Source: Candidatus Bathyarchaeota archaeon (lineage in GTDB: Archaea > Thermoproteota > Bathyarchaeia > Bathyarchaeales > Bathycorpusculaceae). From it: a stretch of DNA of 64,000 nt. This document shows, piece by piece, positions 12,123-50,193 of the stretch. The DNA lies in NCBI GenBank assembly GCA_003151735.1, contig PLYI01000120.1, forward strand, positions 62,001 through 126,000, given 5' to 3'. A program made the translations under genes and the position numbers. The notes beneath the pieces are model-generated. The model ran no database searches and was not told the origin of the DNA. It saw only the letters and a list, made by a program, of their open reading frames with translations. Position 1 is the stretch's first letter; each line of letters starts with the position of its first letter.

Positions 12123-13106
12123 TTAGATGGGGTAAGCTCCGCAGGTTTTGCAGAACTGTATCTTTGTTTTGATATAGCTTTGGCACTTGGGGCACTGTAC
12201 TGCGCCTTCGACTTTTGGGAACACATCTTTGGGTTTGCCGAATTTCTTGCGGAAGGTCTCGTAGTAAAGGAGTTGTTCTTTGTCTTGGATTTCGACATCG
12301 TCTTTTTCTTTGATGGCGGCTTTTTTCTTTGCAAATTCCTCGTCTGTTACAAAGTCGTTGAAGTGTGTTCTTAGGCTCTCGGTTCCTGTTCCTGCTTCCA
12401 GCGGTGCTTTTGGTCTCCAGATTACGTCTTTTGGAATTACGTCTTCGTATGTTTTTCGCAGAATCCACTTGCTGTATTTTACGCCGTTGTACATGTTTAT
12501 CTTGTATTTGATGGGTAGTTTCTTTGCCCACGTCATGAACTCAGGGTCCATGTATGGCGCTTTGATGGTCATTCCAAGAGATGCAGCCATTGGAAGTGAG
12601 GAGAACCCCATTTCTGCCCACATTTCTTCCTGCTTTTTTGCAAATTCAGCTTCTGTTAGGTGGAATTGCCATGGGTAACCGAAAAGTTCGTCTAATGCGT
12701 CGCCTGTGAAAACGCTTTTTATTCCCTTTTCTTTAAAGAGGGTTAAGCCGATGTATACTGGGAGGCTGTTTCTGATTTCCATGGGGTCGTATTTTTTGAG
12801 TGCTTCCACAACTTTTGGGTAAAATTTGAGTACGTCTTCGCGGCCGAACTGGTGGGTTTCTTGTGTAAGATGTAGGAGTGCAACCATTTTTTTAACGTAT
12901 TCGGTGTCTTTCGGAGTTCCGCCTTTGAAGGCTAAGGTTAAACAGGGGATGTCTGGTTTGTATTTTACTGCTTCGTAAGCAATTATTTGGGTGTCGGTTC
13001 CGGCGGAGAAGAGGAAGCCTTCTGCCATATTTTTTTTGACACATTTGTTTACCAGTGTTCTGACTTCGGGTATGAGTTTGGTAACTTCTGACTGATTAAG
13101 CGTCAT
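12123..13106 (-). CDS. Asparagine synthase-like ATP pyrophosphatase with C-terminal zinc ribbon
   Basis: A 327-residue protein resembling the synthetase half of asparagine synthase B, without the N-terminal glutaminase. The PP-loop is FSAGTDTQ rather than the usual SGGxDS; FTGDALDELFGYPW matches the second conserved block (GDGADELFGGY). The C-terminus is a zinc ribbon (QCPKCQSYIKTKIQFCKTC). Archaeal proteins of this class probably adenylate a carboxylate, but the substrate is unknown. The start at 13106 is chosen because GAGGGA lies six bases upstream; an ATG five codons earlier is less well placed. It is divergent from the nitrilase gene, with a perfect inverted repeat between them. Confidence 0.8.
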   Translation of the reverse strand: MTLNQSEVTKLIPEVRTLVNKCVKKNMAEGFLFSAGTDTQIIAYEAVKYKPDIPCLTLAFKGGTPKDTEYVKKMVALLHLTQETHQFGREDVLKFYPKVVEALKKYDPMEIRNSLPVYIGLTLFKEKGIKSVFTGDALDELFGYPWQFHLTEAEFAKKQEEMWAEMGFSSLPMAASLGMTIKAPYMDPEFMTWAKKLPIKYKINMYNGVKYSKWILRKTYEDVIPKDVIWRPKAPLEAGTGTESLRTHFNDFVTDEEFAKKKAAIKEKDDVEIQDKEQLLYYETFRKKFGKPKDVFPKVEGAVQCPKCQSYIKTKIQFCKTCGAYPI

Positions 13107-13152
13107 TTCTATCCCTCGCATTACAGTGTTTGTCGTTCAGCCAGTATTTAAG

Positions 13153-13182: not shown

Positions 13183-13322
13183 TATTAAACATATGTACTG
13201 AAACCAATGTTAATGCTGAACAATCGACTACCACCAGCGCTTAGTTTTTCATTAACATCTCAAGCAACTATGTTTAAATGCTCAAAAACAAAACTCATAA
13301 CACCCTACCGAGGCGCCAAAAC

Positions 13323-14084
13323 GTGAAAGTCAGCCTACTACACATGAAAATACAACCAACCATAGAAGACAACCTAAAAGCCGCCAAAGCCGCCACCATA
13401 AAAGCAGCAAAACAAAAACCCGCCCTAATTGCCCTACCCGAATACTTCACCGTACCCAACTGCATGGCAGACTTCACCGAAGCACAAAAAATATCTCAAG
13501 AAACCTGCGCTAAAACTTTACGTTTTCTACAGAAAGTTTCCAAAGAAATCGGAGGCATCTACCTTCTCGGCGGCACAGTACTTGAAGAAGACTGCGGTAA
13601 ATACTACAACACCAGCACGTTGTGGAGAAACGGTCAACTCTTAGCAAAATACAAGAAGATAAATCCGATAAAGGCTGAAGTTGAGGCAGGCGTTGCCAAA
13701 GGTACATCGCCTCTTGTTGTGGACACTGAATTGGGCAGGCTTGGGTTGATTGTATGCGCTGACACCTTTGACCCTCCTCTTGTTAAGAGGATCGCTGAGT
13801 TAGGCGCTGAAATCGTTTCTCTGCCAGTTGCAGCCATGGGCACTCACCCAACTGTTAAGGGGCACCCATTAACCGAGGGCATCTCACGAGACTATGGCAT
13901 GTTTATATTAAAGGTTGGGAATGTCTGCTCGAACATGCGCGGCGGCAGAAGCGCCATAATCGCTCCATGGGGTGTACTTGACGAAGTAACTGATGCACCA
14001 GAAGACTCAGTGCTGACCGCAGACTTAGACATGCCACGACTCAGAGAATACCGTCGAAAACTCGGCAAACCCCTCGCTACCTAA
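13323..14084 (+). CDS. Nitrilase-superfamily carbon-nitrogen hydrolase
   Basis: A 253-residue amidase/nitrilase. The catalytic triad is visible: Glu in ALIALPEYF, Lys in KYKKINP, and Cys in LIVCADTFDP, in the standard order and spacing. GIYLLGGTV and SRDYGMF/GGRSAIIAPWG are further family segments. Members hydrolyse amides such as omega-amides or N-carbamoyl compounds; the substrate here cannot be read. The GTG at 13323 is chosen as the start since GAGGCG lies eight bases before it and a TTTAAATG box lies about 50 bases before; an ATG at 13278 in the same frame would lie inside the promoter. Confidence 0.85.
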   Translation: MKVSLLHMKIQPTIEDNLKAAKAATIKAAKQKPALIALPEYFTVPNCMADFTEAQKISQETCAKTLRFLQKVSKEIGGIYLLGGTVLEEDCGKYYNTSTLWRNGQLLAKYKKINPIKAEVEAGVAKGTSPLVVDTELGRLGLIVCADTFDPPLVKRIAELGAEIVSLPVAAMGTHPTVKGHPLTEGISRDYGMFILKVGNVCSNMRGGRSAIIAPWGVLDEVTDAPEDSVLTADLDMPRLREYRRKLGKPLAT

Positions 14085-14990: not shown

Positions 14991-15875
14991 TCAGTATGTT
15001 TTTTCCCAGTTATCGACTATCTGCTTCATCTTTGTAAACTCGTAGGTGTCGAGCCATTCGCGGAAGTCGCTGTTGTGGACAGCGAAATATGCGATTTGGC
15101 GTGCGTTTTCTGAGTCGTGGACAAGAAGCAACACAGCTTGGAGGGTATGCCTGGAAATATAAGAAACTGTTTTGAGCAAAGCGCCGAGTTTTTCATCGGT
15201 CGGCAACTCGGAGCTTAACTCTACTACAACAGGTTTCTTCAGAGTGGCAACGAAGTCTCGAACAATAGTGTCGACCCAATAGTTTGTGAAGTAATCCCGA
15301 GACGACAGAGGTACATGGAAATAATCAACTAATTCGGCGATTGCGCTGAAATCTATGCCGAACCGTTCTTTAGCCAGAACTGGATCAGGGAACATTTCAA
15401 CCGCAAATGTCCCTTTTGTGTGGGTTTTGGCTTCTTTTAGGAATGCCGTGACGGTTTTGGCGCGCCATTCGGTCCAGCTTAAGCCGCTTTTTTGGCGTTG
15501 CTCCGTGCATCTGGGGCATGTGCAGTATCCTTCGTCGGCGAAATGATAGAGGTTTAAGGTGACGCCAGTGATGTCTTCTTTGGATAGGATGTCAAGGTAT
15601 TCGTAGACTTTTGTGCGGTAGAGTGGGTGGGTTGGGCATACGAAGTCAAAAGCCAAGTTGTTTCTTCTGTTTCGCCTTAGCGCTGGACCATTGTGAGAGG
15701 TGGAGACTATGGTTGGGTCTTCGCGGATGGCTTTGGCGTCGCAGAAAACGGTAACGTCGTTTTGCATGCCCTTTGCAGCTGGGAAAGCTTGACCGTCAGC
15801 CCATTTGCTGTAGTAAACGTGCGGGTCAAAGCCTTCGACATGTTCAGGTTTGTACGTGACTAAGCCTATCTGCAT
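14991..15875 (-). CDS. Conserved protein with FAD-x-x-C-x-C-x-x-C motif, paralogue 1
   Basis: A 294-residue protein of unknown function. It is a clear paralogue of the gene at 17277 on the other strand: both begin with a short beta strand (GLVTYKPEHVEGF / GVFLYQPEPVEGV), share GPALR-x-N-x-R-x-NL-x-x-D-x-VC, the motif HFAD-x-x-x-CTCPRC (a likely metal or cluster site), and WRAKTVT-x-FL, then FPDP/LPDP...RFG-x-D. The pattern of strands and helices looks like a TIM barrel, and CPRC near the fourth strand occurs in some glycoside-hydrolase-like proteins, but I do not recognise the family. Cytoplasmic, no signal peptide. Confidence 0.75.
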   Translation of the reverse strand: MQIGLVTYKPEHVEGFDPHVYYSKWADGQAFPAAKGMQNDVTVFCDAKAIREDPTIVSTSHNGPALRRNRRNNLAFDFVCPTHPLYRTKVYEYLDILSKEDITGVTLNLYHFADEGYCTCPRCTEQRQKSGLSWTEWRAKTVTAFLKEAKTHTKGTFAVEMFPDPVLAKERFGIDFSAIAELVDYFHVPLSSRDYFTNYWVDTIVRDFVATLKKPVVVELSSELPTDEKLGALLKTVSYISRHTLQAVLLLVHDSENARQIAYFAVHNSDFREWLDTYEFTKMKQIVDNWEKTY

Positions 15876-15933
15876 GGCTAACCCTCTGCTCGCAACAAAT
15901 ATATTCTTGGCGCTTAATTAATTGTTGATTCAA

Positions 15934-16152
15934 ATGGGCAAACAGAAATCATCCATCACAATCGATCCCGCTAAATGTGCTCCTTGCACGGGTCAGATTT
16001 GCATCGGTGTTTGTCCACAGGGCGCCCTGGAAGAGGGCAGGAACAGAAAACCCCAAGTCATCGAAGTAGTGCAGTGCACGAAGTGTGGTGTCTGTGTAAA
16101 CTTGTGTCCAGCCAAAGCCATCACTATAAATGTTAGCAACCCCAAAAAGTAG
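15934..16152 (+). CDS. 2x[4Fe-4S] ferredoxin-like protein
   Basis: A 72-residue ferredoxin with two Cys motifs: CAPCTGQICIGVCP (C-x2-C-x4-C-x3-CP, a longer first loop than usual) and CTKCGVCVNLCP (C-x2-C-x2-C-x3-CP). The ATG at 15934 is preferred over an in-frame TTG at 15922. Only 18 bases separate it from cbiZ on the same strand, so the two are probably one transcript; the paralogue at 17277 follows. It may hand electrons to a partner acting on corrinoids, an inference from context. Confidence 0.85.
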   Translation: MGKQKSSITIDPAKCAPCTGQICIGVCPQGALEEGRNRKPQVIEVVQCTKCGVCVNLCPAKAITINVSNPKK

Positions 16153-16170
16153 CAGTCAAGGGGAACTGGC

Positions 16171-17223
16171 TTGGAACAGATTGACCTTGCAGACAATGTT
16201 AAACTGATTTTGAAGGAAAATGTACTAGCCGTAATTTGTGATAGTGCTTTAAAGACAGTTAGTTCAGCAATATATAAAGGCGGGTACAATCAGGTTAACG
16301 CTGTCCTCAATGTAGGAGTGCCGGAAGGATATAGTGACCTCTCCTTGCACCTTGACCCGCTTGAATTAATCACCTCATCAGCGGCGAAACTTGGCTTAAC
16401 CAAGAATTACCTCGCCATGGTAACCGCCGCCAAAGTAAAAAATTACAGTTTGGTTTCAAAGAAAACCGACTCCTTCTCGGTCCATGTTGCCGCAACCGCC
16501 GGCTGTTCGCACGGAGAATCCTCAGGCGAAGAAATGAACGTCCAAGAAATCGTAGGAACCATAAACATAATCGTTCTAATAGATGGAACCCCATCCGAAA
16601 GCTGCATGGTCGCAGCGTTAATCACTGCAACAGAAGCCAAATCTGCTGCCCTCAGAGACTTTGATGTTAGAAGCCGTTACACAGGCGACTCAGCAACTGG
16701 ATCCATAACTGACAGCGTCACTGTTGCCTCGACAAGTCGTGGCAAAACATTGAGTTTGGCTGGTCCAGCGTCGAAACTGGGCAAGCTGGTTGGGTCTTGT
16801 ACAAGACGGGCGGTTACTGAAGCGTTGCTCAAGCAGGAGCCTGTTTGGGCTTGCCGAACCGTGCTAGACAGACTTAAGGAAAGGCATTTGTCGCTTGAGA
16901 AGTTGGCGGCTGAAGTATCTAAGGTTGAGGGTTTAGCCGTGGATGCGAAGGGTTTGGAGGAGATTTTGAATACTAACTCATGTTTTGGGGCTGTTTTGTT
17001 GGCGGCGGCGAAGATGGATGACGATTACAAAAAGAACCTGTTGCCAACCGACTATGAGGATTGGACAGAGGTAAGCAAATGCTTAGGCGTTTCTTCTCTA
17101 TCAAGTCAGGACTGCTCTAAACCTCCAAACTATGACCAGGTTGAATTACCGCCCTTCCTAAAACACACACTAATCAAAATTGTCAAGGAAGCGCGATCTA
17201 AAGCGTTAACTGAAAAGACTTAA
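16171..17223 (+). CDS. cbiZ: Adenosylcobinamide amidohydrolase, extended
   Basis: CbiZ cuts the aminopropanol linker of (pseudo)cobinamide to adenosylcobyric acid, letting archaea salvage foreign cobamides. Family blocks visible: N-V-G-V-P region, ATAGCSHG, GTINIIVLIDG, TATEAKSAALRDFDV and ATGSITDSV, followed by the GPASKLGKLVG...AVTEAL block. At 350 residues it is about 120 longer than typical CbiZ; the extra C-terminal part (after about residue 230) has helices and several Cys but no family I recognise. Start is TTG with GGGGA upstream. It fits the heavy corrinoid demand implied by cdhDE, mtrH and the B12-binding radical SAM genes. Confidence 0.85.
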   Translation: MEQIDLADNVKLILKENVLAVICDSALKTVSSAIYKGGYNQVNAVLNVGVPEGYSDLSLHLDPLELITSSAAKLGLTKNYLAMVTAAKVKNYSLVSKKTDSFSVHVAATAGCSHGESSGEEMNVQEIVGTINIIVLIDGTPSESCMVAALITATEAKSAALRDFDVRSRYTGDSATGSITDSVTVASTSRGKTLSLAGPASKLGKLVGSCTRRAVTEALLKQEPVWACRTVLDRLKERHLSLEKLAAEVSKVEGLAVDAKGLEEILNTNSCFGAVLLAAAKMDDDYKKNLLPTDYEDWTEVSKCLGVSSLSSQDCSKPPNYDQVELPPFLKHTLIKIVKEARSKALTEKT

Positions 17224-17276
17224 ATAACTTGCACTTTTATTCCGTAATAAAAATAACATGAAATGGTGTATTAAAC

Positions 17277-18179
17277 TTGAAATTCGGCGTATTTCTCTAT
17301 CAACCCGAGCCTGTTGAAGGCGTAGACTACAATTTCTACCGTTTGAAATCAGAATCAGGAATCGTTGGAAAAGTAAATCCTGAAATGTACACTAACATCG
17401 CGTGCTTTGGCGATAATTACATGGCGGCGAAACGCCCGGACTGGGTCTCTGTCAGCTCATGGGGTCCAGCACTCCGTACCAACAAACGTTACAACCTCCG
17501 CTGGGACGTCGTATGCATGACTAACCCAGAGGCCAGAGAATATAACCTGAAAATCATCGCTGACTGCGCCAAAGTATCTCCAGGCATAAGCATTAGCAGC
17601 CAACACTTCGCAGATCAGCATTTCTGCACCTGCCCCCGATGCATTGAACAGCAGCGCAAAAGCGGTTTAAAATGGCTTGATTGGCGGGCAAAAACAGTAA
17701 CTGACTTCCTTGCAGAAGTTAAAGAAAAAGTCCCCGGCAACCCACTCTTTGTCAACTGTCTACCTGACCCATTGATGGGCAGGGAACGCTTCGGCTACGA
17801 CTTTGAAGCCATGGCACAGTACACTGACTACTTCGTCATTCCAATGTTCAGCAAAGCATACCCAACCCCGTGGTACTGGGAAACCATTGCAAGAGGCTAC
17901 AAGAGCTTCCTCAAAAAACCAGTTATGGTAAACTTCTATGTCCGCGGTCCAAACGAAACATGGGACACCGTTGCACCAGCAGACCAAATCATGACTGTTG
18001 CAACCCGTGTCGCAAGACAAGGAGTCGATGGCATAATTTTCCTAGCTGAAAAAGCCGAATACATTCGAGAGTTCCAGAAGAGATGCGTTGCCAACAAAGA
18101 AAAGCGTGAATTCCTTAAGGGCCACAACGGCGACGAAGTCTTAGAGCTCTTTGACAGATGGGAAAAGATGCTAAAATAA
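17277..18179 (+). CDS. Conserved protein with FAD-x-x-C-x-C-x-x-C motif, paralogue 2
   Basis: A 300-residue paralogue of the product at 14991-15875 with the same ordered motifs: GVFLYQPEPVEGV, GPALRTNKRYNL, HFADQHFCTCPRC, GLKW-x-x-WRAKTVTDFL, LPDPLMGRERFG. Starts with TTG 53 bases after cbiZ on the same strand. The conserved C-x-C-P-x-C triad points to a metal or Fe-S site in an otherwise barrel-like alpha/beta protein. Since one copy lies on each side of the ferredoxin and CbiZ genes, a role in corrinoid handling or in a methyl-transfer step is conceivable but not shown. Confidence 0.75.
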   Translation: MKFGVFLYQPEPVEGVDYNFYRLKSESGIVGKVNPEMYTNIACFGDNYMAAKRPDWVSVSSWGPALRTNKRYNLRWDVVCMTNPEAREYNLKIIADCAKVSPGISISSQHFADQHFCTCPRCIEQQRKSGLKWLDWRAKTVTDFLAEVKEKVPGNPLFVNCLPDPLMGRERFGYDFEAMAQYTDYFVIPMFSKAYPTPWYWETIARGYKSFLKKPVMVNFYVRGPNETWDTVAPADQIMTVATRVARQGVDGIIFLAEKAEYIREFQKRCVANKEKREFLKGHNGDEVLELFDRWEKMLK

Positions 18180-19598: not shown

Positions 19599-20984
19599 GT
19601 GAAGGTTACTCTTGTTAATCCTCCCTATCCTCCAAATGCACATTCACATCCACCCTTCATCCCGTTGGGTCTAGCATACCTTGGAGCAGTCGCCGAAAAG
19701 GCAGGCCATGAGGTTACGGTCATTGACTGCCAAGGTGAAAGACTAAATTACGACAGTTTCAAACAGAGAATCGCGAGGGTTCCATCGGATGTTGTCGGCG
19801 TAACCTCAACTACACTTCTATATAACTCAGCCAAAACCATTCTGGAAACTGCCAAAGAGGTACATCCAAACACCGTCTCTATGATTGGCGGAAGCCACGT
19901 GAGCTTCTGGGACGAAAACGCCCTAAACGAATCCAAAAGCATAGATGTAATTGTACGTCGAGAAGGCGAAGCCACATTCCTCGAGTTGCTTCAACGTATT
20001 CAGAATAAAAGGAACTTTGCCGGAGTACTGGGCTCAACATATCGTGGAACCGACGGAAAAACACAGCGCAACGAAGATAGACCATTTTTGCATGATTTAG
20101 ATTCACTGCCTTCACCAGCATATCATTTGCTTCCACTGGACTCATACCGCCGCATGGGCAAAACCATCTTTCCCATAGTGACAAGCCGCGGATGTGTTCA
20201 ATGGTGTGACTTCTGCAGCACTGTACGCATGTTCGGCAGAGGCTACCGCATGAGAAGCCCAAAAAATGTGGTTGACGACATGGAGACGCTGCATAACAAG
20301 TATGGCGAGAGCCAATTTACCTTCTACGATGACGCATTCACAGTTAACCGCAAGCATACAATGGAGATGTGTGCGGACATTAAAGCCCGCAAATTAGATG
20401 TCGAGTGGGACTGCGAAACCCGCGTTGACGCAGTTGACAAAGAACTGCTTGAAACTATGCATGATGCAGGATGCATAACCATTTGGTTCGGCGTTGAATC
20501 TGGCTCCGAGAGAATCTTGGATCAGATGCACAAGAAAATAAAGCCTGAAGAAGTCCGTTTAGCCTTCAAAACCGCGCAAAAAGCAGGTTTAATGACTATT
20601 GCCAGTGCAGTTATCGGCTTCCCAGGCGAAACAGAAGAAACAGCATGGGAAACAATCAACTTCATTAACTCACTAAACCCTGACGACATAGGCTTCTACG
20701 TAGCAACGCCCTATCCGGGAACCCCAATGTATGAGCAAGTAGTCAAGAATAGTTGGCTACGAGTTACTGACTTTAACAAATATGACACTGCAACCCCAAC
20801 TTTTGAAACACCATTTCTAAGCATGGAGAAAATCCGGGAGATCAAATACAAGGCACATCAAAAGTTTTACCTGCGACCAAGCTACGTGTTTAAGATGATG
20901 CGTAAAGGTGGAACCTACGGCAGATCGGGACTGAAAACGTCCGCTGCCTACGCACTCAGATACATGCATGTTAAACTCTCTTAA
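19599..20984 (+). CDS. B12-binding radical SAM protein, tandem copy 1
   Basis: A 461-residue cobalamin-binding radical SAM enzyme. The N-terminal 140 residues form a B12-binding-like Rossmann domain (NPPYPP, HPPFIPLGLAYLGAVAEKAG, MIGGSH), lacking the DxHxxG base-on His. The radical SAM motif is SRGCVQWCDFCS (C-x3-C-x2-C), with downstream FGVESGSERIL and GFPGETEETAWETI as in this class, and ATPYPGTPMYEQ near the C-terminus. Members methylate inactive carbons or rearrange lipids and cofactors; the substrate is unknown. It has its own TATA-like region (ACTATATAA) and is followed 116 bases later by a close paralogue on the same strand. Confidence 0.85.
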   Translation: MKVTLVNPPYPPNAHSHPPFIPLGLAYLGAVAEKAGHEVTVIDCQGERLNYDSFKQRIARVPSDVVGVTSTTLLYNSAKTILETAKEVHPNTVSMIGGSHVSFWDENALNESKSIDVIVRREGEATFLELLQRIQNKRNFAGVLGSTYRGTDGKTQRNEDRPFLHDLDSLPSPAYHLLPLDSYRRMGKTIFPIVTSRGCVQWCDFCSTVRMFGRGYRMRSPKNVVDDMETLHNKYGESQFTFYDDAFTVNRKHTMEMCADIKARKLDVEWDCETRVDAVDKELLETMHDAGCITIWFGVESGSERILDQMHKKIKPEEVRLAFKTAQKAGLMTIASAVIGFPGETEETAWETINFINSLNPDDIGFYVATPYPGTPMYEQVVKNSWLRVTDFNKYDTATPTFETPFLSMEKIREIKYKAHQKFYLRPSYVFKMMRKGGTYGRSGLKTSAAYALRYMHVKLS

Positions 20985-21100: not shown

Positions 21101-22480
21101 ATGAAAATTACTTTGGTTAATCCGCCCTATCCACAAAGCGTCCATTCACATCCACCCTTTATCCCATTAGGTCTAGCCTATTTGGGCGCAGTTGCGGAGA
21201 AAGCAGGTCACCAAGTCAAAGTAATTGACTGTCAAGCCGAGAAACTAACTTATGAGACTTTCCGCGACCGCATCGCTCAGACGCCGTCTGACATAATCGG
21301 GGTAACGGCGACAACATTGCTCTACAAGTCTGCTATGAAACTAATTATCATAGCTAAACAGACTCAACCAAAAGCAGTCACGATGCTTGGCGGGTCACAT
21401 GGAACTTTCTGGGACGAAAACGCCCTCAACGAATATCCAAACCTAGATATTGTTGTTCGAAGAGAAGGCGAACAAACCTTCATTGAACTTCTCGACAAAC
21501 TCCAATCTCAATCCAGCCTCAGCAACGTATTAGGCATCACTTACAGAGGCGGCGATAAAATTGTCCGCAATGCAGACAGAGCCTTCATAGAAGACTTAGA
21601 TTCACTGCCTTTTCCAGCGCATCATTTGTTGCCGCTTGAAAACTTGAAACATAATGGCAAAATAATTTTCCCCTTGGTAAGCAGTCGTGGATGCGTCTAT
21701 TGGTGCGATTTCTGCAGCACTGTACGCATGTTCGGCAGAGGCTACCGCATGAGAAGCCCAAAAAATGTGGTTGACGAAATGCAGCTTATCCACGACAAAT
21801 ACGGCGTCGACCAAGTTACGTTTTATGATGACGCTTTTAGCGTTGACCGCAACCGAGTTATGAAGATATGCGAGGAATTACGCGATAGGAACCTGCATTT
21901 GAAGTGGGATTGCGGCACCCGCGTGGACATGGTGGACCGCGAACTTATGAAAACTATGCATGATGCAGGCTGCTTTGCTGTTTGGTTGGGTGTGGAGTCT
22001 GGTTCCGAAGCCATTCTTGGAGCGATGAATAAACGCATCAAGCTGGATCAGACAAGAAAGGCATACAAGATGGCGCATGAGGTAGGTTTGATGACGATTG
22101 CCAACGTCGTTTTAGGTTTTCCTGGCGAAACAGAACAAACAGCCCGGGAAACAATCCGTTTCGTTAAGGAACTAAACCCTGACGACGTAGGCTTCTACGT
22201 AGCTACGCCCTATCCTGGAACCCCGATGTATGAACAAGTAAAGAAGAACGGTTGGTTAAGAACTACGGATTTTGACAAGTACGACACTGCTGGCCCAACT
22301 TTTGAAACGCCATCCCTAAGCATGGAGAAACTTGCCCAGCTTCGCTACAAGGCATATCAAGCTTTTTACTTGCGACCAAGCTATGTAATCCATATGATGC
22401 GTAAAGGCGGAGTCTATGGAATCGCAGCGGCGAAAACTTCAGGCGCTTACCTGCTCAGGTACCTGCACATTAAACCTTGA
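21101..22480 (+). CDS. B12-binding radical SAM protein, tandem copy 2
   Basis: A 459-residue paralogue of the preceding gene, alike along the whole length, with cluster motif SRGCVYWCDFCS, LGVESGSEAIL and GFPGETEQTA. A 68-base stretch after the cluster motif (21710-21777) is identical at the DNA level to 20211-20278 although the flanks differ at many third positions. Its own promoter-like stretch (CAATATATTTAA) lies about 35 bases before the ATG. The two copies may act on related substrates or form a heterodimer. The 3' end overlaps the convergent DUF1616-like gene by about 40 bases. Confidence 0.85.
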   Translation: MKITLVNPPYPQSVHSHPPFIPLGLAYLGAVAEKAGHQVKVIDCQAEKLTYETFRDRIAQTPSDIIGVTATTLLYKSAMKLIIIAKQTQPKAVTMLGGSHGTFWDENALNEYPNLDIVVRREGEQTFIELLDKLQSQSSLSNVLGITYRGGDKIVRNADRAFIEDLDSLPFPAHHLLPLENLKHNGKIIFPLVSSRGCVYWCDFCSTVRMFGRGYRMRSPKNVVDEMQLIHDKYGVDQVTFYDDAFSVDRNRVMKICEELRDRNLHLKWDCGTRVDMVDRELMKTMHDAGCFAVWLGVESGSEAILGAMNKRIKLDQTRKAYKMAHEVGLMTIANVVLGFPGETEQTARETIRFVKELNPDDVGFYVATPYPGTPMYEQVKKNGWLRTTDFDKYDTAGPTFETPSLSMEKLAQLRYKAYQAFYLRPSYVIHMMRKGGVYGIAAAKTSGAYLLRYLHIKP

Positions 22481-22840
22481 TAATTCCCTACTTTTCCTAA
22501 CATAAGCAATTACCGCAAGAACCAGCACTAACACGCTAATCGAAACTGTGATTGATGTAAATTCGAACTTGATGGGCGATAACCCCAAAAACAAACCTAA
22601 TAGCCCAGTTAAACCAAAGCTTAACGCAACAGACAACACTAATTGCTCGACAAAATCTATTCTGTTTTTACCTAGAAATAATATGGTTACTAGGCAGTAA
22701 CCAGGCAAAAACGCGATAAAAACAAACCCGAAAACATAACGTAAAGCAACAAGCCATGAATCGCTTGGTATAAGGTAAGTAACCAGTAACGTTAAAACTG
22801 TGAAACCAACAATAATTTCAAACCATCTTAGCGGCTTCAG
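22439..22840 (-). CDS. DUF1616-like membrane protein, short, possible CTG start
   Basis: A 133-residue frame with four membrane helices. The segments SDSWLVALRYVFGFVFIAFLPGY, then LFLGKNRIDFVEQLVLSVALSFGL match the start of DUF1616 proteins (an LPGY turn followed by ER-x-ALSFGLS-like helix). Typical family members are much longer, so this one is truncated at the C-terminus. After the upstream stop there is no ATG, GTG or TTG before the first helix; CTG at 22840 has GAAGG seven bases upstream. A TTG at 22708 would start inside the family domain. It follows mtrH by about 50 bases on the same strand. Confidence 0.5.
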   Translation of the reverse strand: MKPLRWFEIIVGFTVLTLLVTYLIPSDSWLVALRYVFGFVFIAFLPGYCLVTILFLGKNRIDFVEQLVLSVALSFGLTGLLGLFLGLSPIKFEFTSITVSISVLVLVLAVIAYVRKSRELSRFNVQVPEQVSA

Positions 22841-22854
22841 ATTTTAGCCTTCAA

Positions 22855-22902
22855 AAAACAAAATAAATAAAAAATAAAGGAAGATGTTCACATGAACATC
22901 TT
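22855..22902 (-). terminator. Terminator overlapping the mtrH stop codon
   Basis: On the minus strand AAGATGTTCA and TGAACATCTT form perfect 10-bp arms around two bases (22881-22902), followed by CCTTTATTTTTTATTTATTTTG. The mtrH stop TGA lies inside the stem. Confidence 0.65.
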
Positions 22903-23799
22903 ATAGATCGGGTGAGTCTCTTCTAGTGGTCTGGTTCCTAAGTCGCCTGCGGCAGATGCGATGTATGAGTCTGTGACTGCAACGGCTGGGAATACCCATT
23001 CAGCTTGTTCGGCAGGTCCAATCATAAGCCAGTTTGCGCCTGCTGTTTGCATGATTGCGTTGGTTGCGGTTCTGCATCCAGGTCGGAATTCTTTAGCAAC
23101 GTTTGCTTTTACCCAACCCATGGTTGTGACAACGTTTCCGCTGCCTAATCCTACAGGGTGACCATACTTCTCTTTCATGATTGGGATGGTTCTTACTGCA
23201 GTTCCCATGTCTGGAGCGAAAGCGGGAATAGCTGTGTCAATCAAAGGCTTTGTGATTCCGCCTTTGTCTGCTAATGCTAAAGCTTCTTGGATGACCTTCA
23301 TTTTGCCTTCGAGGCTGTTGTCTTTTGGATCGTCAGCTAGCACTATGGACATTTTGATTCCGCTATCTTTCAGGTTTGCTAGTTCTGCGTCAGTTACACC
23401 TTTGTAAACTGAGTTGTAGAAGCATCTGTCTGACAGTCCCATTTTCTTAGCCATGGTTGCTGCTGTCATGCGGGTTTTAGGGCTCATTGCATCCAACATG
23501 ATTGGTGCTTCACAATGCTTCGCAACGAAATCGATGTATTTTCCGAAGGCTTCTTCTGTTGTTCCAACAACGTCAAAGCCGTATTGTACGCCTGTAATGT
23601 CACTTTGGGTCTGCATCGTGTTAATGATTTGTTCAGCTACTTTAGCATCAAAAATTCCTTTGTTTGCATCCTGAACCATTTTCTGGCCTAACCAAAAGAT
23701 AGAACCGATTATGAAAGTCGGTAGTTCCCCTGGCTGACCGCCTACTTTTACTTTCCCTACCGTGTATATGTTTTGTTTCGTGTTGAATTTAAAGGACAT
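22888..23799 (-). CDS. mtrH: MtrH-family methyltransferase
   Basis: A 303-residue TIM-barrel methyltransferase of the MtrH family (KVKVGGQPGELPTFIIGSIF start, MLDAMSPKTR, GLGSGNVVT, GCRTATNAIMQTAGANWLMIGPAE). In methanogens MtrH moves the methyl group between tetrahydromethanopterin and the corrinoid of MtrA. No other Mtr subunit is in the window; instead the gene lies 18 bases behind a small corrinoid-binding protein on the same strand, as in MtrH-like methyltransferase pairs thought to bring methyl groups from external methylated compounds to tetrahydromethanopterin. The pair therefore looks like a soluble two-component methyl transfer system feeding the CODH/ACS encoded at 45-54 kb. A terminator overlaps its stop. 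Confidence 0.88.
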   Translation of the reverse strand: MSFKFNTKQNIYTVGKVKVGGQPGELPTFIIGSIFWLGQKMVQDANKGIFDAKVAEQIINTMQTQSDITGVQYGFDVVGTTEEAFGKYIDFVAKHCEAPIMLDAMSPKTRMTAATMAKKMGLSDRCFYNSVYKGVTDAELANLKDSGIKMSIVLADDPKDNSLEGKMKVIQEALALADKGGITKPLIDTAIPAFAPDMGTAVRTIPIMKEKYGHPVGLGSGNVVTTMGWVKANVAKEFRPGCRTATNAIMQTAGANWLMIGPAEQAEWVFPAVAVTDSYIASAAGDLGTRPLEETHPIYKMFM

Positions 23800-23817
23800 T
23801 TTTCCACATCTGATGGA

Positions 23818-24243
23818 TTATTTGCCTATTGCTTTCTTTGCGAGTTCAGGAGCTTCTTCTTTGTTTTTGCCGAACAGTGCGCCAATTGCATCAGCGTCTT
23901 CTTTTTTGACTGCTGCGCCGCCCATAATTATGGCGATTTTGCCTTTTAATCCGGCTGCTTTCAGTGCTTCATCGAGTTTTGCAAGGTTGTTTTTTGCTGG
24001 AACTGTGTTAACTGATATTGCAATCAGGTTTGCATTGTTTTCTTTTGCTTTGTCAACGAAGACTTGTGGTGCGACGCTTTTTCCAACGTCGATAGTTTTG
24101 AATCCGGCGCGTTTTAGAGACCTGCGAACTGCTTCTTTTGCAGTGTCATGCATGTCTGGTTCAATGTTGCCGATAACGACTATGCCGATTGGATTCTCTG
24201 GTTCTGGAGGCTCTTTTTCCATCATAGATTTAAGCCAAGACAT
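23818..24243 (-). CDS. Small corrinoid-binding protein without helical cap
   Basis: A 141-residue B12-binding Rossmann domain. The base-off/His-on motif is present as D-M-H-D-T-A (residues 30-35), with Ala where the family usually has Gly; ISVNTVP fits the S-x-L/V position and IIMGGAAV the GG position. Unlike MtaC, MtbC or MtmC (about 210 residues) it has no N-terminal four-helix cap, only a 20-residue Pro-rich leader, so the corrinoid upper face would be capped by a partner, possibly MtrH. It precedes mtrH by 18 bases and has a strong TATA box. Likely role: methyl carrier between an unidentified first methyltransferase and MtrH. Confidence 0.8.
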   Translation of the reverse strand: MSWLKSMMEKEPPEPENPIGIVVIGNIEPDMHDTAKEAVRRSLKRAGFKTIDVGKSVAPQVFVDKAKENNANLIAISVNTVPAKNNLAKLDEALKAAGLKGKIAIIMGGAAVKKEDADAIGALFGKNKEEAPELAKKAIGK

Positions 24244-32783: not shown

Positions 32784-33620
32784 TTACTTTAGGATCCTGT
32801 CAGCGTCGACACTAAACCCGCAGTTGGTGAGTTCTCGGATAAGGGATAGTTTCCAACTGTCGCGGTCGTCAAACGCGCTAATTTTTAGGCCTTCAAAACT
32901 GGGACCTTCAAAGCCGTCGCGCTCCCTAAAGAAGACAAGCACGTTATCCTTGCCAAGTTTTCCCAACAGAAAACCAAGCTGGAAATCCACGTTTTGCATA
33001 GGCCTTAGCTTGCGTTTTGTTGGCGCTTTATTTCTGCCGTACACGTAATCGTCAGGCGAGAGCAAAACTACGGCAAAACCAACATCCGCGTAGTCTGTGA
33101 AGCGTTCAACAATTTTTCTGCCTTGACTGGGCTCTTCACACAACACAACAGGCACAAACCCAAGTTTAGCCAAAGCCCCAGTGACAGCCTGCTTCATCTC
33201 GTCATCCTCACCTGAAATAACAAAAACTCTGCGATGCATTCCTGGAGCAGAAAGAGATTGGGTAGGCGCCGTGGTTTTCTCCTGTTGACCCAAAAATTTT
33301 TCGGTACATGGGTAAGCTCCTTTCACTTTGGAGTTAAGTACGCTTGCAATTAGGTATTTTTTGTTTTTTGCAGCCACAAGGCTTTCTTGGTTTGGCAGGG
33401 CGAGTTTGTCGGCTGTTTCGTAGGACCAGAAGATGATGGCTTTGGTTACTTTGATGGGGTTGAGTAGTCTGCCCATGAACCAGAAGGGTTGGCCGGCAGT
33501 GAAGGAGGTGGCAAATGTTCGATTGAGTTCCTCTTGAGTGACGTTGAAGCGTAAGCCGGATTTTTCGGGTTCGGCGTATTCTATGTAGATGTGGTATTTG
33601 GGCACTTGCACATTTATCAA
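32784..33620 (-). CDS. Protein with C-terminal TIR-like nucleotide-binding domain
   Basis: A 278-residue two-domain protein. The C-terminal domain (about 129-275) matches the TIR-like family found in CAP12-type immune effectors and other predicted nucleotide-binding proteins: RRVFVISGEDDEMKQAV, EEPSQGRKIVERF with the candidate catalytic Glu172, ADVGFAVVLLSPDDYV, NVDFQLGFLLGKLG and the closing SWKLSLIREL. The N-terminal 110 residues (beta-rich start, FWFMGRLLNP, IIFWSYETADKL) are not recognised and would be the sensor. TIR-like domains of this class cleave NAD or bind cyclic nucleotides during anti-phage defence. It is alone between tRNA-Gly and purM; no cyclase gene is seen nearby. Confidence 0.75.
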   Translation of the reverse strand: MINVQVPKYHIYIEYAEPEKSGLRFNVTQEELNRTFATSFTAGQPFWFMGRLLNPIKVTKAIIFWSYETADKLALPNQESLVAAKNKKYLIASVLNSKVKGAYPCTEKFLGQQEKTTAPTQSLSAPGMHRRVFVISGEDDEMKQAVTGALAKLGFVPVVLCEEPSQGRKIVERFTDYADVGFAVVLLSPDDYVYGRNKAPTKRKLRPMQNVDFQLGFLLGKLGKDNVLVFFRERDGFEGPSFEGLKISAFDDRDSWKLSLIRELTNCGFSVDADRILK

Positions 33621-45557: not shown

Positions 45558-46982
45558 TTATGGTTGCCATTTCGCTATGAGATACTTGGGTATCTCGCTG
45601 CTGTCGCGTGGTCCAACTTGGACTTTCCAGCCACTGAGTTCTTCGATTTCGCCGCTGATGCGTGATGCTTTGCCTGGGATGATGATTTTTCTGTGTTTAA
45701 CTTTGCTCTCTATGCCTGAGGCTTTGATTGCGTCTGCGACTCTTTCAGCTGTTAGTTTGCGTCCTGCAACTCCGCTGTCTATAGCTGAACCTTCTGTTTC
45801 CACAACGATTAGGTACGCGTTTAGTTTGTTGGTGTCAAGGTCTGAGGCGACTGTGTAGTATGTTAAGGCGAAGTTTGATGTGAAGAACACTGGCGAGTTC
45901 TCGTCTGGTGTGCCGAAGACTTTCAGGCCTGGTGCAACTGCGACTGGTTTTCGTGGGTCAGTGTAGATGTTTTGTCTTAGCACTGTCATTGGAAGTAGTG
46001 CCCATCCGTCGTTGCCATGCATAACAAGTACGTCTGCGTAGCGGACAATAAGCATTGAAGCTATGTATGCTTCTCGCCATTTGATCAGGTCATCTGCTGT
46101 TTCGCCCTTATCTACCCATGCAACCATTGGTACACCGAGCAGAGGGAAACCTGCGAGTTCTTCGCCGCCTTTAGTTGCAGCTCTGCGCAGCATGGTAAAA
46201 TTGTTTATTGTGTCGGCTAGGCCTTCGTTCATGAAGGTGCCTGGGTCTAAGACTATGTCTGTTACGCCGTAAGCCATCAAGGTCTTTGCTAAGGAGACGA
46301 GTGTGGTTAGGTCGTTTGGTGCGGATGCAACTATTGGGCAATTGTACATTAGTGCAAGTTCTGCCATGTCTTTCCAGTTGGTTGAGTTTGCCGCGTAGAT
46401 GAGTGGTCGTGCTTTGGGTGCAGCCATTAAGCCTGCTTCAGCTATGGCGGGGTTCATGGTGCACAATATCATTGGTAGTTTGGTGGTTTCTGAAACTTTT
46501 TTGACGGCAACCTTGAATTTGTCAGCATCTTGCGATGTGCATCTGACAGCTATCATATCGAGCTTTAGAGTGTTGCCGATGTATTCGAAGGTGTAGTTAT
46601 CTGTTTTTTGTACGCGTGCAACTATTTCTTGCTCTGTCATTTCGTCGGTTACGTCGATTGCGATTGCGGTTGGGTTCTTGTAGGTGAATTCGTGGCGGTA
46701 CATGACTAGTTTGCCGCCGATTTTCTTTGCTTTTTCACCAACGCCAATGATGACTTCTTTGACGGCTGGTTTTAGGAGTTCTTGGAGTTTAGCGTAAGCT
46801 TTTGCGTTCTCTGGTTTTAGCAGTGGTTTACAAATGTCCAGTTCCATTTCGCGGTTGACAATTTTGGTGGCGAAAGCCATGCAGTTGTCTACGCCGCATT
46901 CTTTACAGTTAATTTTCGGCAGGGCTTTGTAGATGTCTATAGGGCTTAGTTCTTTTAATCCAGCTTTCTTTTTCTCGGTCAT
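45558..46982 (-). CDS. cdhE: CODH/ACS corrinoid Fe-S protein large subunit (gamma)
   Basis: CdhE is the larger subunit of the corrinoid iron-sulfur protein that carries the methyl group from tetrahydromethanopterin to acetyl-CoA synthase. Residues 20-60 hold the 4Fe-4S motif (INCKECGVDNCMAFA...DICKPLL); the middle is a TIM barrel, and the C-terminal part (about 330-470) the B12-binding domain with SAIDSGVAGRKLTA. 474 residues, normal. Last gene of the cdhABCDE operon, 13 bases after cdhD. Confidence 0.95.
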   Translation of the reverse strand: MTEKKKAGLKELSPIDIYKALPKINCKECGVDNCMAFATKIVNREMELDICKPLLKPENAKAYAKLQELLKPAVKEVIIGVGEKAKKIGGKLVMYRHEFTYKNPTAIAIDVTDEMTEQEIVARVQKTDNYTFEYIGNTLKLDMIAVRCTSQDADKFKVAVKKVSETTKLPMILCTMNPAIAEAGLMAAPKARPLIYAANSTNWKDMAELALMYNCPIVASAPNDLTTLVSLAKTLMAYGVTDIVLDPGTFMNEGLADTINNFTMLRRAATKGGEELAGFPLLGVPMVAWVDKGETADDLIKWREAYIASMLIVRYADVLVMHGNDGWALLPMTVLRQNIYTDPRKPVAVAPGLKVFGTPDENSPVFFTSNFALTYYTVASDLDTNKLNAYLIVVETEGSAIDSGVAGRKLTAERVADAIKASGIESKVKHRKIIIPGKASRISGEIEELSGWKVQVGPRDSSEIPKYLIAKWQP

Positions 46983-46995
46983 GTCAACTTGCTCC

Positions 46996-48228
46996 TTAAC
47001 CTTTTACTGTGACCCAGTTAGCGTATTTTGATGGGTCTGCTTTTTTGACGCTTGTCAGGTAGTTGGTTACGTCTTTTAATGTTTTTACGGCTGCTGGGTG
47101 CATCATCATGAATAGGTCAACGCCAGCGAGCAGCAGTGTTATGGCGGTTGTTACTTCCCATAGTGGACCTCTAAGTTCGCGGGGTTCCCATTCAGCAGAC
47201 ATTTTTAGCCATGCTTCACGGGCTGCCCAAGCGTTGGTTGTGCCTGAGGACATTGGGTGTGCAAGTTCCGTATCGCCCATTAAGCCGCCCATTCTTGCGC
47301 GTTCCATGTTTGTGAATGCGTAGTCTAAGCCGTAGCCTAATGCTGCTGTGGTTAAGTCCATAACGATATCTTCTCTGTCGAGAAAATCGTATAGTCGCCT
47401 GTTGAGTTCGCGTGCCAAGTTTAGGTCCATCGGAGTGAACGATAGCGCAACATGACCGTTTTTCTTAACGAATTTTGCGCAGCGTTCAACATCCATGTCG
47501 CGTGTGATTGAGCTGATTAGGAAACGTTCGTTGGGGAAAGCTTCGCAGATTGCCTCGAAAACATTTGCATCTTTCACTGGGTCACCACAGCCGCCGATAA
47601 CGAGTGGAACATCAACAGCTTGTAGGATTTTTTCAACGGTTTTTACTGCATCTTTTGGTTGGGCGTCTTTGAGTAGAGGGTCAATGCTGATTAAGTGGAC
47701 TGTAACCATGTCTGCATCGAATTTTTCAACTGCAAGTTTTGCCCATGCTGCTGGGTCGCCCACGACATCTTTAACGTGCATCTTAACGGCCTTAGACAGT
47801 GGAACTTCCATGTCGAAAACGTCAAGTGTAATTACTGGTTTGTGGGGCATTGGACGCTCAAAAGTGTAGAATGCTGGAGAAACTTCTCCGCCTATGGTGA
47901 GCGTTCTTCCGCGTGTGCCACCTTCTTTTCTTGTTCCGCCAAGTTTTACTTCAGTGATTTTGTTTGGGTAGGTTTCGATGGGTGGTAGGAAAGGCACCTG
48001 CAGCATGCTGGTTGGTTTTCCGCCAGTTACGCCTGCAACGGCTGTTGGAAGCTTTAGTTTGGGCATCATTTGCCCAGCCATGCCGGGTTCAAAGATGATT
48101 TCTAGTTCTTTGAGGTCCATTTGGAAGTCTTGGAGTTCGATTCGCTGGAATTTTGCGAGGGCTTCGAGTAAGTCGCCGCTTAGTTTTAGTCCTTCATTGT
48201 CTTTCTTTTTTTCGTTGTTTTGAGTCAT
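46996..48228 (-). CDS. cdhD: CODH/ACS corrinoid Fe-S protein small subunit (delta)
   Basis: CdhD pairs with CdhE in the corrinoid iron-sulfur protein and docks the methyltransferase. The 410-residue protein has an N-terminal extension (LSGDLLEALAKFQ...) typical of the archaeal form, a TIM barrel (LGGTRKEGG, VITLDVFDMEVPL, PLVIGGCGDPVKDANVFEA) and a C-terminal GLDYAFTNMERARMGGL, as in the family. The start lies five bases before the cdhC stop in transcription order, so the genes are co-translated. Confidence 0.95.
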   Translation of the reverse strand: MTQNNEKKKDNEGLKLSGDLLEALAKFQRIELQDFQMDLKELEIIFEPGMAGQMMPKLKLPTAVAGVTGGKPTSMLQVPFLPPIETYPNKITEVKLGGTRKEGGTRGRTLTIGGEVSPAFYTFERPMPHKPVITLDVFDMEVPLSKAVKMHVKDVVGDPAAWAKLAVEKFDADMVTVHLISIDPLLKDAQPKDAVKTVEKILQAVDVPLVIGGCGDPVKDANVFEAICEAFPNERFLISSITRDMDVERCAKFVKKNGHVALSFTPMDLNLARELNRRLYDFLDREDIVMDLTTAALGYGLDYAFTNMERARMGGLMGDTELAHPMSSGTTNAWAAREAWLKMSAEWEPRELRGPLWEVTTAITLLLAGVDLFMMMHPAAVKTLKDVTNYLTSVKKADPSKYANWVTVKG

Positions 48229-48233
48229 TTAGG

Positions 48234-49643
48234 TCACCGTTTTTCGTCGGTTTTAGCTTGGATTATTACTTTGGAGGCGTAGATTTTTGCGTCTTTAAGT
48301 ATGATTTTGAATCCGCCCGCCATGATGGGTAGTGACGCTGCTGTTGCAACTGGCATCATTGTTGTTGCTGCTTGTTCTTCGGTAACTTGTACTGCTTGAG
48401 CTTCTGCTACTGGAGCTGCTTCTGCTTCCCATCTTGCGACCACTGGATGATTCTTTGCTTTGAGGAAAGCTTTGAGTTCATCTACGTTCTTTGCATCTTC
48501 TTCGGTTGCTATTTTGTCAACGACGTCTCTGGGTATGAATTCTTTGACGCGTTCTTTGACTTCTTTAGGTACCCAAACTATACGGTTCCATCCGCCGTCG
48601 GCTGCGAAGAATTTCTGGCTTCGCATGTATTCGATGCTCATTCCGTGGAATCCGTCGATTTGCCGCCCCCCGGCAGTGGAGTCTGCAAGAGTGCTGAAGG
48701 GTAAGCCGTTTACTGCTGCACCTTTGAAGCTTCTTTGAACGACCCCTAATCCGTCAACTTCTGGGATGTAGAAGGCTACTGCTTCGAAGCATCCGCAGGA
48801 AGTGTGCGGGTGATCGAATGCTGTGTAGAGCCAGACTTGGTTAACTTCGCCCATGGTGCGTTTCTTGGCGGCTTCGTTGACGCCGCTGAATTCACCTTTC
48901 TCCTCGTTGATTATTTCGCCTCGTGGAATTGCGAAGACTGGACCTTTCGGGTCGATGCTTGCTGAGGCTTTGCCGTCAAACCAGCTGATGGCGCCGCAGT
49001 TGCTGTACCGTTGTGGTGTGATAACACAGACGTGGCTTGGTGCGAATGATTGGCAGAGGACACAGCCGTAGAATGTATCGACTTCTGAGTCTTTTAGGCC
49101 TCTGGCTTTTGCATCGCGTGATTCGTATGCTTGCATTGCTTCAGGGGTCATTTCTGCGAGTTTGGCTGTGTCGGTTATGAAGGTGATTTGTATTTTCTCG
49201 ATTATGGGCAGTTCGCTCTTGAATAGGCGGTAGAGGACTTTGCCGATTGGTTCAAAGCTGTTTAAGCCTTTTGCGAAGGATTTTTTGCCCAAGCGCATCC
49301 AGATATCGTAGCGCTGGTTTAGGTGCATGAAGCCTTCGATGTAGTTTAGGTAACCGTGAATGCGTCGTTCAATGACACCTTCAAGGCCTGCGTCGAGCTT
49401 TGCGCCTGCTGCTTCAACCAGTATACCGAATGGGTAAGCACCGCCTTCTTTTAGGTCTTTTAAGTCTGGGCCGACGATGGTGATTTTGCCATCTTCGACT
49501 TCGTCCATGGGTTTTACTTTTGCGAGTTCAAACTTTTGTTTAACTGTGGGTCCGCCGAGTTCTACTTGCATGTCGTTTCTTCGGATACGTTCTCCTTCGT
49601 AGATTACGCCAACTTCAACAGGTATATCTTTAAACATTGACAT
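48234..49643 (-). CDS. cdhC: Acetyl-CoA synthase subunit (beta)
   Basis: CdhC carries the Ni-Fe-S A-cluster and builds acetyl-CoA from CO, a methyl group and CoA. The A-cluster Cys residues are in FYGCVLCQSFAPSHVCVITP, YSNCGAISWF and HPHTSCGCFEAV (the C-G-C that binds the proximal metals). Like other archaeal forms it lacks the N-terminal CODH-binding domain of bacterial AcsB. The C-terminus after residue 400 is Ala/Glu-rich. Start at 49643 because GGAGG is eight bases upstream; an earlier ATG at 49658 lies inside that site. One base after the cdhB stop. Confidence 0.96.
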   Translation of the reverse strand: MSMFKDIPVEVGVIYEGERIRRNDMQVELGGPTVKQKFELAKVKPMDEVEDGKITIVGPDLKDLKEGGAYPFGILVEAAGAKLDAGLEGVIERRIHGYLNYIEGFMHLNQRYDIWMRLGKKSFAKGLNSFEPIGKVLYRLFKSELPIIEKIQITFITDTAKLAEMTPEAMQAYESRDAKARGLKDSEVDTFYGCVLCQSFAPSHVCVITPQRYSNCGAISWFDGKASASIDPKGPVFAIPRGEIINEEKGEFSGVNEAAKKRTMGEVNQVWLYTAFDHPHTSCGCFEAVAFYIPEVDGLGVVQRSFKGAAVNGLPFSTLADSTAGGRQIDGFHGMSIEYMRSQKFFAADGGWNRIVWVPKEVKERVKEFIPRDVVDKIATEEDAKNVDELKAFLKAKNHPVVARWEAEAAPVAEAQAVQVTEEQAATTMMPVATAASLPIMAGGFKIILKDAKIYASKVIIQAKTDEKR

Positions 49644-49644
49644 T

Positions 49645-50187: not shown

Positions 50188-50193
50188 GTCGTA

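Follow-up and report, generated by a model that had tools for sequence, protein, structure and literature searches.

Paralogous proteins, very probably of the MtgB family, beside ferredoxin and CbiZ genes in a bathyarchaeon: probable components of a corrinoid-dependent O-demethylase system

The stretch of DNA analysed here, called the window below, comprises 64,000 nucleotides of a Candidatus Bathyarchaeota archaeon (GenBank assembly GCA_003151735.1, contig PLYI01000120.1, positions 62,001 to 126,000). Two genes, A and B, lie on its opposite strands around genes for a ferredoxin and for CbiZ; an earlier note on this DNA had seen in them two unrecognised proteins and had proposed an uncharacterised corrinoid repair, salvage or methyl-transfer system. 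We propose that this genome has four MtgB-family proteins, A and B among them, which would be the methyltransferase I (MT1) components of a bathyarchaeal corrinoid-dependent O-demethylase system, and we put the probability of this reading at roughly four in five. The features of the locus are listed here (TIM, triosephosphate isomerase; MT2, methyltransferase II; SAM, S-adenosylmethionine; CODH/ACS, carbon monoxide dehydrogenase/acetyl-CoA synthase).

14991-15875, minus strand: paralog A, MtgB-family TIM-barrel protein of clade A (open reading frame of 294 aa)
15507-15524, minus strand: CxCxxC (CTCPRC) of A, in the invariant four-cysteine site (motif and alignment)
17277-18179, plus strand: paralog B, MtgB-family TIM-barrel protein, probable methyltransferase I / O-demethylase (open reading frame of 300 aa)
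17625-17642, plus strand: CxCxxC (CTCPRC) of B, in the invariant four-cysteine site with C80 (17514-17516) (motif and alignment)
15934-16152, plus strand: 2x[4Fe-4S] ferredoxin, between A and CbiZ (Fer4_10, 34.2 bits, cut-off 25.5)
16171-17223, plus strand: CbiZ adenosylcobinamide amidohydrolase with a C-terminal extension, CbiS-type layout (PF01955, 162.9 bits)
13278-14084, plus strand: nitrilase-superfamily amidohydrolase (family match)
19599-20984, plus strand: B12-binding radical SAM protein, a recurring neighbour of putative role (locus clustering)
21101-22480, plus strand: second B12-binding radical SAM protein, likewise recurring and of putative role (locus clustering)
22888-23799, minus strand: MtrH-type methyltransferase (MtgA, MT2; family match)
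23818-24243, minus strand: corrinoid protein (MtgC; family match)
45558-52542, minus strand: CODH/ACS genes, namely two of the CdhD family, CdhC and one of the Prismane/CODH family (family matches)

A and B align from end to end with 107 of 298 positions identical (36%, E 3e-66), so that the motifs common to them reflect homology rather than chance, and the arrangement on which the earlier note was built, full-length paralogs on opposite strands flanking a ferredoxin and CbiZ, is borne out. The note took the motifs to be identical. What is constant is a set of four cysteines, C80, C117, C119 and C122 (B numbering), invariant in 24 chosen members including A and B and also in a 12-member set that includes four outgroup copies; the exact strings vary across the family, with CGGC, CERC or CQRC in place of CPRC and HFPE, HFAE or GFPR in place of HFAD. 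Elsewhere in the genome, beyond the DNA that the note covered, are two further paralogs, C and D, making four family copies.

A search with B in 61 genomes (its own and 60 relatives) found the family in 27 and not in 34, the positive genomes having three to five matches each, a few of which are fragments. Within the window's own genus, 22 of 32 genomes have three to five matches (a few fragmentary), and the other ten have MtrH without the family. A profile (A1) built from 24 of the 66 clustered family copies was then run over a limited scope: the 256 genomes of the class, and 300 genomes sampled from the phylum. In the class it matched 65 genomes at E 0.001 or better, 62 of them strongly; three weak rows (G152, G040, G060) were set aside before counting, and the 62 form the positive set used below. 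Fifty-eight belong to the window's order and four lie outside it. Strong matches in the phylum sample are confined to this class, and seven genomes beyond it match weakly; the proteins of the four inspected are longer, and the three scanned with Pfam are of the GHL10/GHL6 type. De novo corrin synthesis, with CbiC as its marker, was considered as the cause of this distribution and rejected, because only 39 of the 62 positive genomes have CbiC.

A midpoint-rooted tree of 44 copies from 26 chosen loci resolves clade A (13 rows, support 100/99), clade B (12 rows, 88/73) and a clade of C plus D (13 rows, 100/99), with clade A distant from B and from C/D. On the opposite side of the root stand the four outgroup copies together with E, a fourth copy of some f6 genomes. 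These outgroup-like E copies (L058 7727-8620, L073 8904-9797) have a different neighbourhood, and CbiZ is absent from the stretch fetched around them.

Clustering of the genes of 42 loci gives the order nitrilase, A, ferredoxin, CbiZ, B, B12-binding radical SAM genes, small open reading frame, MtrH and corrinoid protein, which the loci show completely or in part. CbiZ is present in 61 of the 62 family-positive genomes, as against 20 of the 194 others in the class; in the window's family outside its own genus CbiZ accompanies all 27 positives and none of the 31 negatives, a fairer comparison than a Fisher test, which takes no account of relatedness and is not relied on here. A family copy and CbiZ could be placed on one contig in 60 genomes; they are no more than 1.5 kb apart in 57 of these and 3.2-5.1 kb apart in the other three (G081 lacks a CbiZ match, and no places were listed for the G126 copies). 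The linkage spans four families of the class. With a threshold of E 1e-40, the nitrilase is found in all 27 of the 61 genomes that have paralogs and in no others. Of 33 loci measured, 31 have a ferredoxin pattern between A and CbiZ, and L035 and L057 do not (L051 and L135 are one genome; L042, with overlapping genes, and L130 and L144, with gaps above 3 kb, were excluded). MtgA and MtgC lie near family copies in L057, L059, L132, L133, L138, L142 and L148, and in L057, L132, L133, L138 and L142 these include B and C copies. The earlier note had offered co-occurrence with cbiZ, mtrH or corrinoid proteins as a check, and the link to corrinoid genes is strong. The bond between the family and CbiZ is not strict: CbiZ occurs without the paralogs in ten genomes of the own genus, which keep MtrH and lack a nitrilase at E 1e-40, and in ten others of the class. 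In the three of these ten own-genus genomes whose loci were fetched (L139, L140, L141), CbiZ neighbours MtrH and MtgC, and no paralog, nitrilase or radical SAM gene is labelled at the locus, which provides a natural deletion comparison.

Structure prediction and remote homology search, which the note had also proposed as checks, place the family among barrels of the glycoside hydrolase (GH) type. The AlphaFold model of B has a mean pLDDT (predicted local distance difference test) of 95.7, and its best PDB match by Foldseek is Cwp19 (E 2.4e-9, TM-score 0.58 by query length, root-mean-square deviation 6.2, 14% identity). GH164 and GH42 enzymes come next, and unrelated TIM barrels further down the best 50 of 1677 matches, among which best 50 the UroD fold is absent. 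On this model, the MtgB-family fold is a GH-type TIM barrel. Sequence searches of Pfam, NCBIfam and PDB with A, B and the alignment gave sub-threshold matches only, the recurring ones being to glycosidase-like families; weak Pfam matches (E up to 0.1) among 24 members were to DUF4838 in 15, GHL10 in 12, GHL6 in 11 and DUF4015 in 6. The members from L129, L130, L152 and L058 pass the DUF4015 cut-off, the L144 member does not, and A and B fall under every cut-off. Neither A, B nor their kin match UroD or another methyltransferase family in Pfam or NCBIfam, and neither A nor B matches the AP (apurinic/apyrimidinic) endonuclease 2 superfamily, the CbiR type, in the same databases.

The four-cysteine pattern, an upstream cysteine followed by CxCxxC, also aligns in three of five distant relatives, the GHL10/GHL6 proteins L153 (same order), L155 and L158 (same phylum), and is missing in L154 and L157. 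Since the four cysteines are common to the family and to these proteins, CPRC is most simply read as an inherited metal site. GH42 enzymes carry a structural zinc on a comparable cysteine tetrad. No acidic residue is invariant at the ends of strands 4 and 7 in the 12 members (strands counted from DSSP of the B model). The Asp of an LDxIR-type motif is retained (as LD) by all four outgroup copies and replaced elsewhere, by Glu in clade E, by Ser in B, by Asn in C, D and most A, and by Cys in the A of L057; GHL10 itself is reported to lack the strand-7 acid (PMC5765458). The polar residues invariant in the 12 members besides Cys and Ser are K24, D46, D164, R171 and Y195 (B numbering), which are candidates for new active-site residues.

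A family with several of these properties has been described. Yu et al. 2023 (PMC10989822) reported MtgB_1 and MtgB_2 of Ca. Baizosediminiarchaeum ligniniphilus, two MT1 proteins of about 300 aa that are 44.85% alike and adjoin mtgA and mtgC. They were described as unlike any known MT1 and found only in Bathyarchaeia, in 60 of 172 metagenome-assembled genomes of one order, and demethylation of guaiacol and vanillin was demonstrated for MtgB_2 only. A and B resemble them in length (294 and 300 aa), in paired copies, in having mtgA and mtgC as neighbours, in restriction to Bathyarchaeia and in having no homology to other MT1 proteins. In a second study the lineages Bathy-6A and Bathy-6C have two to five MtgB homologs and 6B none, while all Bathy-6 keep MtgA and MtgC (PMC11697101), a pattern close to that of the window's own genus, with three to five matches or none and MtrH kept. 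CbiZ beside a BtuFCD transporter is also reported there in a Bathy-6 context, and the pairing of MtrH with a corrinoid protein had been noted earlier in Bathy-6 (PMC7886697). The 'mtgB' of PMC11264602 is a glycine betaine gene for a different protein. Finally, G057 has adjoining B and C copies, both of 300 aa, with 135/301 identical positions (44.850%). It is from length, copy number, distribution, neighbourhood and this pair identity that we read the family as MtgB. On that reading the earlier note was right to think of methyl transfer and wrong to call the proteins uncharacterised, one member having been assayed in 2023. According to the note, clear homology to a glycosidase or other known family with no genomic link to corrinoid genes would refute it; homology to glycosidase-type barrels was indeed found, and the link to corrinoid genes is real.

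Several observations weigh against the assignment to MtgB. It goes by length, copy number, distribution, neighbourhood and pair identity rather than by comparison with the published sequence. The exact agreement at 44.850% may be partly luck: G057 alone gives that value, the other six g16 genomes give 44.5-48.3% for B against C, and the window's own genome gives 43.8% (in L132, L133, L136 and L142 the pair is 56.7-60.7% identical). The closest constant neighbour of family copies is CbiZ, not MtgA. In the window MtgA and MtgC (22888-24243) lie 4.7 kb from B on the opposite strand, and C and D are on other contigs. No MtgC or MtrH is labelled in the fetched stretches L131, L136 (a short contig), L137 and L143, and the four outgroup stretches contain no window-type MtgC and no labelled MtrH.

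There are also differences from the published picture. MtgB as described in PMC10989822 belongs to one order, whereas four of our positive genomes lie outside the window's order; it comprises two copies, whereas the window genome has four, with the 14991 copy in a distant clade. The published MtgB tree has three groups, the third of them distant (PMC10989822), and clade A is perhaps that third group. The account of MtgB in PMC10989822, as far as its accessible text goes, does not include the link to CbiZ, nitrilase and ferredoxin, the fold or homologs outside the order, all of which are present here. In the accessible literature on MtgB we found mention neither of a GH-type fold nor of a four-cysteine site shared with GHL10/GHL6 proteins, and the same goes for the outgroup copies and for joint inheritance of the family with CbiZ, the nitrilase and the ferredoxin. 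Conserved genes around MtgA-MtgC do appear in a supplementary figure of PMC11697101, so part of the neighbourhood may already be in print.

If A and B are MtgB-family proteins, a pathway can be outlined. The barrel would bind the methoxylated aromatic compound, Co(I) on the corrinoid protein MtgC would accept the methyl group, MtgA/MtrH would transfer it to tetrahydromethanopterin, and CODH/ACS would form acetyl-CoA, the expected end point of the methyl group. The adjoining CbiZ would provide corrinoid through salvage. What the analysis itself establishes is homology among the family members, linkage and co-inheritance, along with a predicted fold; the identity with MtgB, the activity of B, any role of A and those of the ferredoxin and the nitrilase are inferred. 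Because two bathyarchaeal studies (one of them PMC10989822, in its accessible text) found no activating enzyme, the ferredoxin is worth testing as a candidate electron donor for Co(II) reactivation.

The four genomes outside the order (L129, L130, L144, L152) have one family copy each, in three of them within BtuFCD-like operons and in L152 beside a cobalamin adenosyltransferase. In L129 the copy lies between a gene for a periplasmic binding protein and a radical SAM gene, followed by genes for a FecCD permease and an ABC ATPase; opposite are CbiB, a CobT-like gene (named by its sequence, with no Pfam match), CbiZ, CobS and a nucleotidyltransferase. The L129 transporter scores under the NCBIfam cut-offs (BtuF 90.4 of 234 bits, BtuC 275.1 of 334, corrinoid ATPase 282.7 of 537) and also matches iron and F420-0 transporter models, so that its putative corrinoid substrate rests on the neighbouring genes. 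Gene order and gene sizes in L130 are those of L129. L144 has a binding protein (BtuF, 147.6 of 234 bits), the copy, a permease and an ATPase in that order, with CbiP-like, CbiB, CbiZ and CobS-like genes nearby (the last assigned by eye). In L152 a gene for a PduO-type adenosyltransferase (209.6 bits, cut-off 108.45) runs divergently from the copy.

These loci allow an extension of the MtgB reading that we consider doubtful: the family would have arisen within corrinoid-uptake operons from a GH-type barrel, its oldest branches would still act on cobamides, and lignin-type O-demethylation would be a later use. Those branches would be represented by the copies that occur singly in BtuFCD-like operons, and perhaps also by clade A with its CbiZ and ferredoxin neighbours; the chemistry could be, for example, demethylation of methoxybenzimidazole lower ligands, or corrinoid handling in salvage or reactivation.

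It is also conceivable, and in our view unlikely, that the whole family consists of cobamide salvage or remodelling enzymes, whose barrels act on the nucleotide loop or lower ligand of imported cobamides before CbiZ, as CbiR does in bacteria. The near-universal and close linkage to CbiZ, the BtuF-X-BtuC-BtuD-like orders in L129, L130 and L144 and the adenosyltransferase neighbour in L152 all fit such a role. CbiR, an unrelated bacterial enzyme with a predicted TIM barrel (PMC7733943), provides a precedent, and CbiR passes its cut-off in none of the 256 class genomes (weaker matches occur in 221, and also in 11 of 14 control genomes). Against it stand the match to MtgB, for which activity on guaiacol and vanillin is known from one member, and the twenty genomes, ten of them in the own genus, that have CbiZ without the paralogs. 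Cobamide remodelling of this kind had been the leading interpretation until the MtgB account (PMC10989822) displaced it.

A separate question is whether A does the same work as B. Its distance from B and C/D in the tree, the ferredoxin between A and CbiZ at nearly all loci and the activating enzyme missing from the two bathyarchaeal studies could mean that A and the ferredoxin together form that enzyme and reduce the corrinoid protein. We think this very unlikely: family searches with A and its kin brought up neither an ATP-binding nor a redox domain, the four-cysteine site of A is common to GHL10/GHL6 proteins, which are not known to be redox proteins, and according to one paper an activating enzyme is not always needed. 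That A and B are true glycoside hydrolases lying beside corrinoid genes by chance is scarcely credible, for all the GH-type fold and the four members over the DUF4015 cut-off, given the linkage to CbiZ in four families of the class, the missing invariant acid at strands 4 and 7 and the replacement of the LDxIR Asp in A to D.

The extension of CbiZ is real and somewhat longer than the 120 or so residues of the earlier note, as PF01955 covers residues 26-215 of 350 and leaves about 135. In some relatives CbiZ stands in open frames of only 238-248 aa. NF038002 scores are 120.8 bits for the window copy, 204 for L129 and 233.3 for L144, all under the cut-off of 250. The extra domain of L144 matches PgpA (36.3 bits, cut-off 28) and CobZ (142.7 of 152.5 bits), and that of L129 matches CobZ weakly (35.6 bits); taken alone, the extension of the window copy matches no family in Pfam or NCBIfam. 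Its model is mostly helical, with low confidence in parts, and a fold search with the CbiZ model, with a best TM-score of about 0.33, was not used. The window protein is like CbiS, a CbiZ-CobZ fusion, in domain order and in its CbiZ domain, and unlike it in scoring under the cut-off and in having a C-terminal part with no match of its own. The extension is probably a CbiS-type domain that has diverged in this lineage, with a putative activity.

Other genes of the neighbourhood may be noted. The small open reading frame at 22439-22708 (minus strand), a recurring neighbour of MtrH, looks membrane-like by eye and may be kin to a transmembrane partner that the authors of MtgB mention (PMC10989822). 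At 12123-13121 (minus strand) lies a 332-aa asparagine-synthase-like protein (PF00733, 108.5 bits) with a zinc-ribbon-like C-terminus by eye; its gene recurs beside CbiZ, also in the paralog-free L139-L141 and near the outgroup copies of L129 and L130. At locus L055 of the window genome (10990-13459), some 1.8 kb separate copy C from a gene of the Prismane/CODH family; after that gene comes a second short corrinoid protein, which shares 63% identity with MtgC. As a general marker of corrinoid genes copy C was discarded, a corrinoid protein being absent from five other own-genus C loci (L062, L065, L067, L070, L072). The product of 32784-33620 (minus strand) contains a TIR domain of the CAP12/Pycsar effector type (PF10137, 76.1 bits) and is a candidate for a defence function in this bathyarchaeon.

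With this analysis two unannotated proteins gain a name, the MtgB family, and its GH-type fold, its co-inheritance with CbiZ and its outgroup in B12-uptake-like operons are brought together, three points that we did not see joined in the accessible papers. Two recurring neighbours, the ferredoxin and the nitrilase, offer concrete candidates for components still missing from the system, in particular for the activating enzyme. The UroD-superfamily O-demethylases MtvB, OdmB, VdmB and MtoB likewise carry out corrinoid-dependent O-demethylation (PMC13222342), and their relative CdmB is a TIM barrel; the MtgB family differs from them in having no UroD match and a barrel of GH type. It shares the fold of GHL10, DUF4015, GH42 and GH164 barrels (the Cwp19, GH164 and GH42 structures) and the cysteine pattern of some distant relatives, and differs from these barrels in having no conserved acid pair and in lying near corrinoid rather than sugar genes. 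A glycosidase-type barrel for the bathyarchaeal O-demethylase would mean that aryl O-demethylation with the help of corrinoids evolved two or more times, each time on a different TIM barrel. The family itself is known and recently described; we suggest that its origin and its link to corrinoid salvage are the interesting part.

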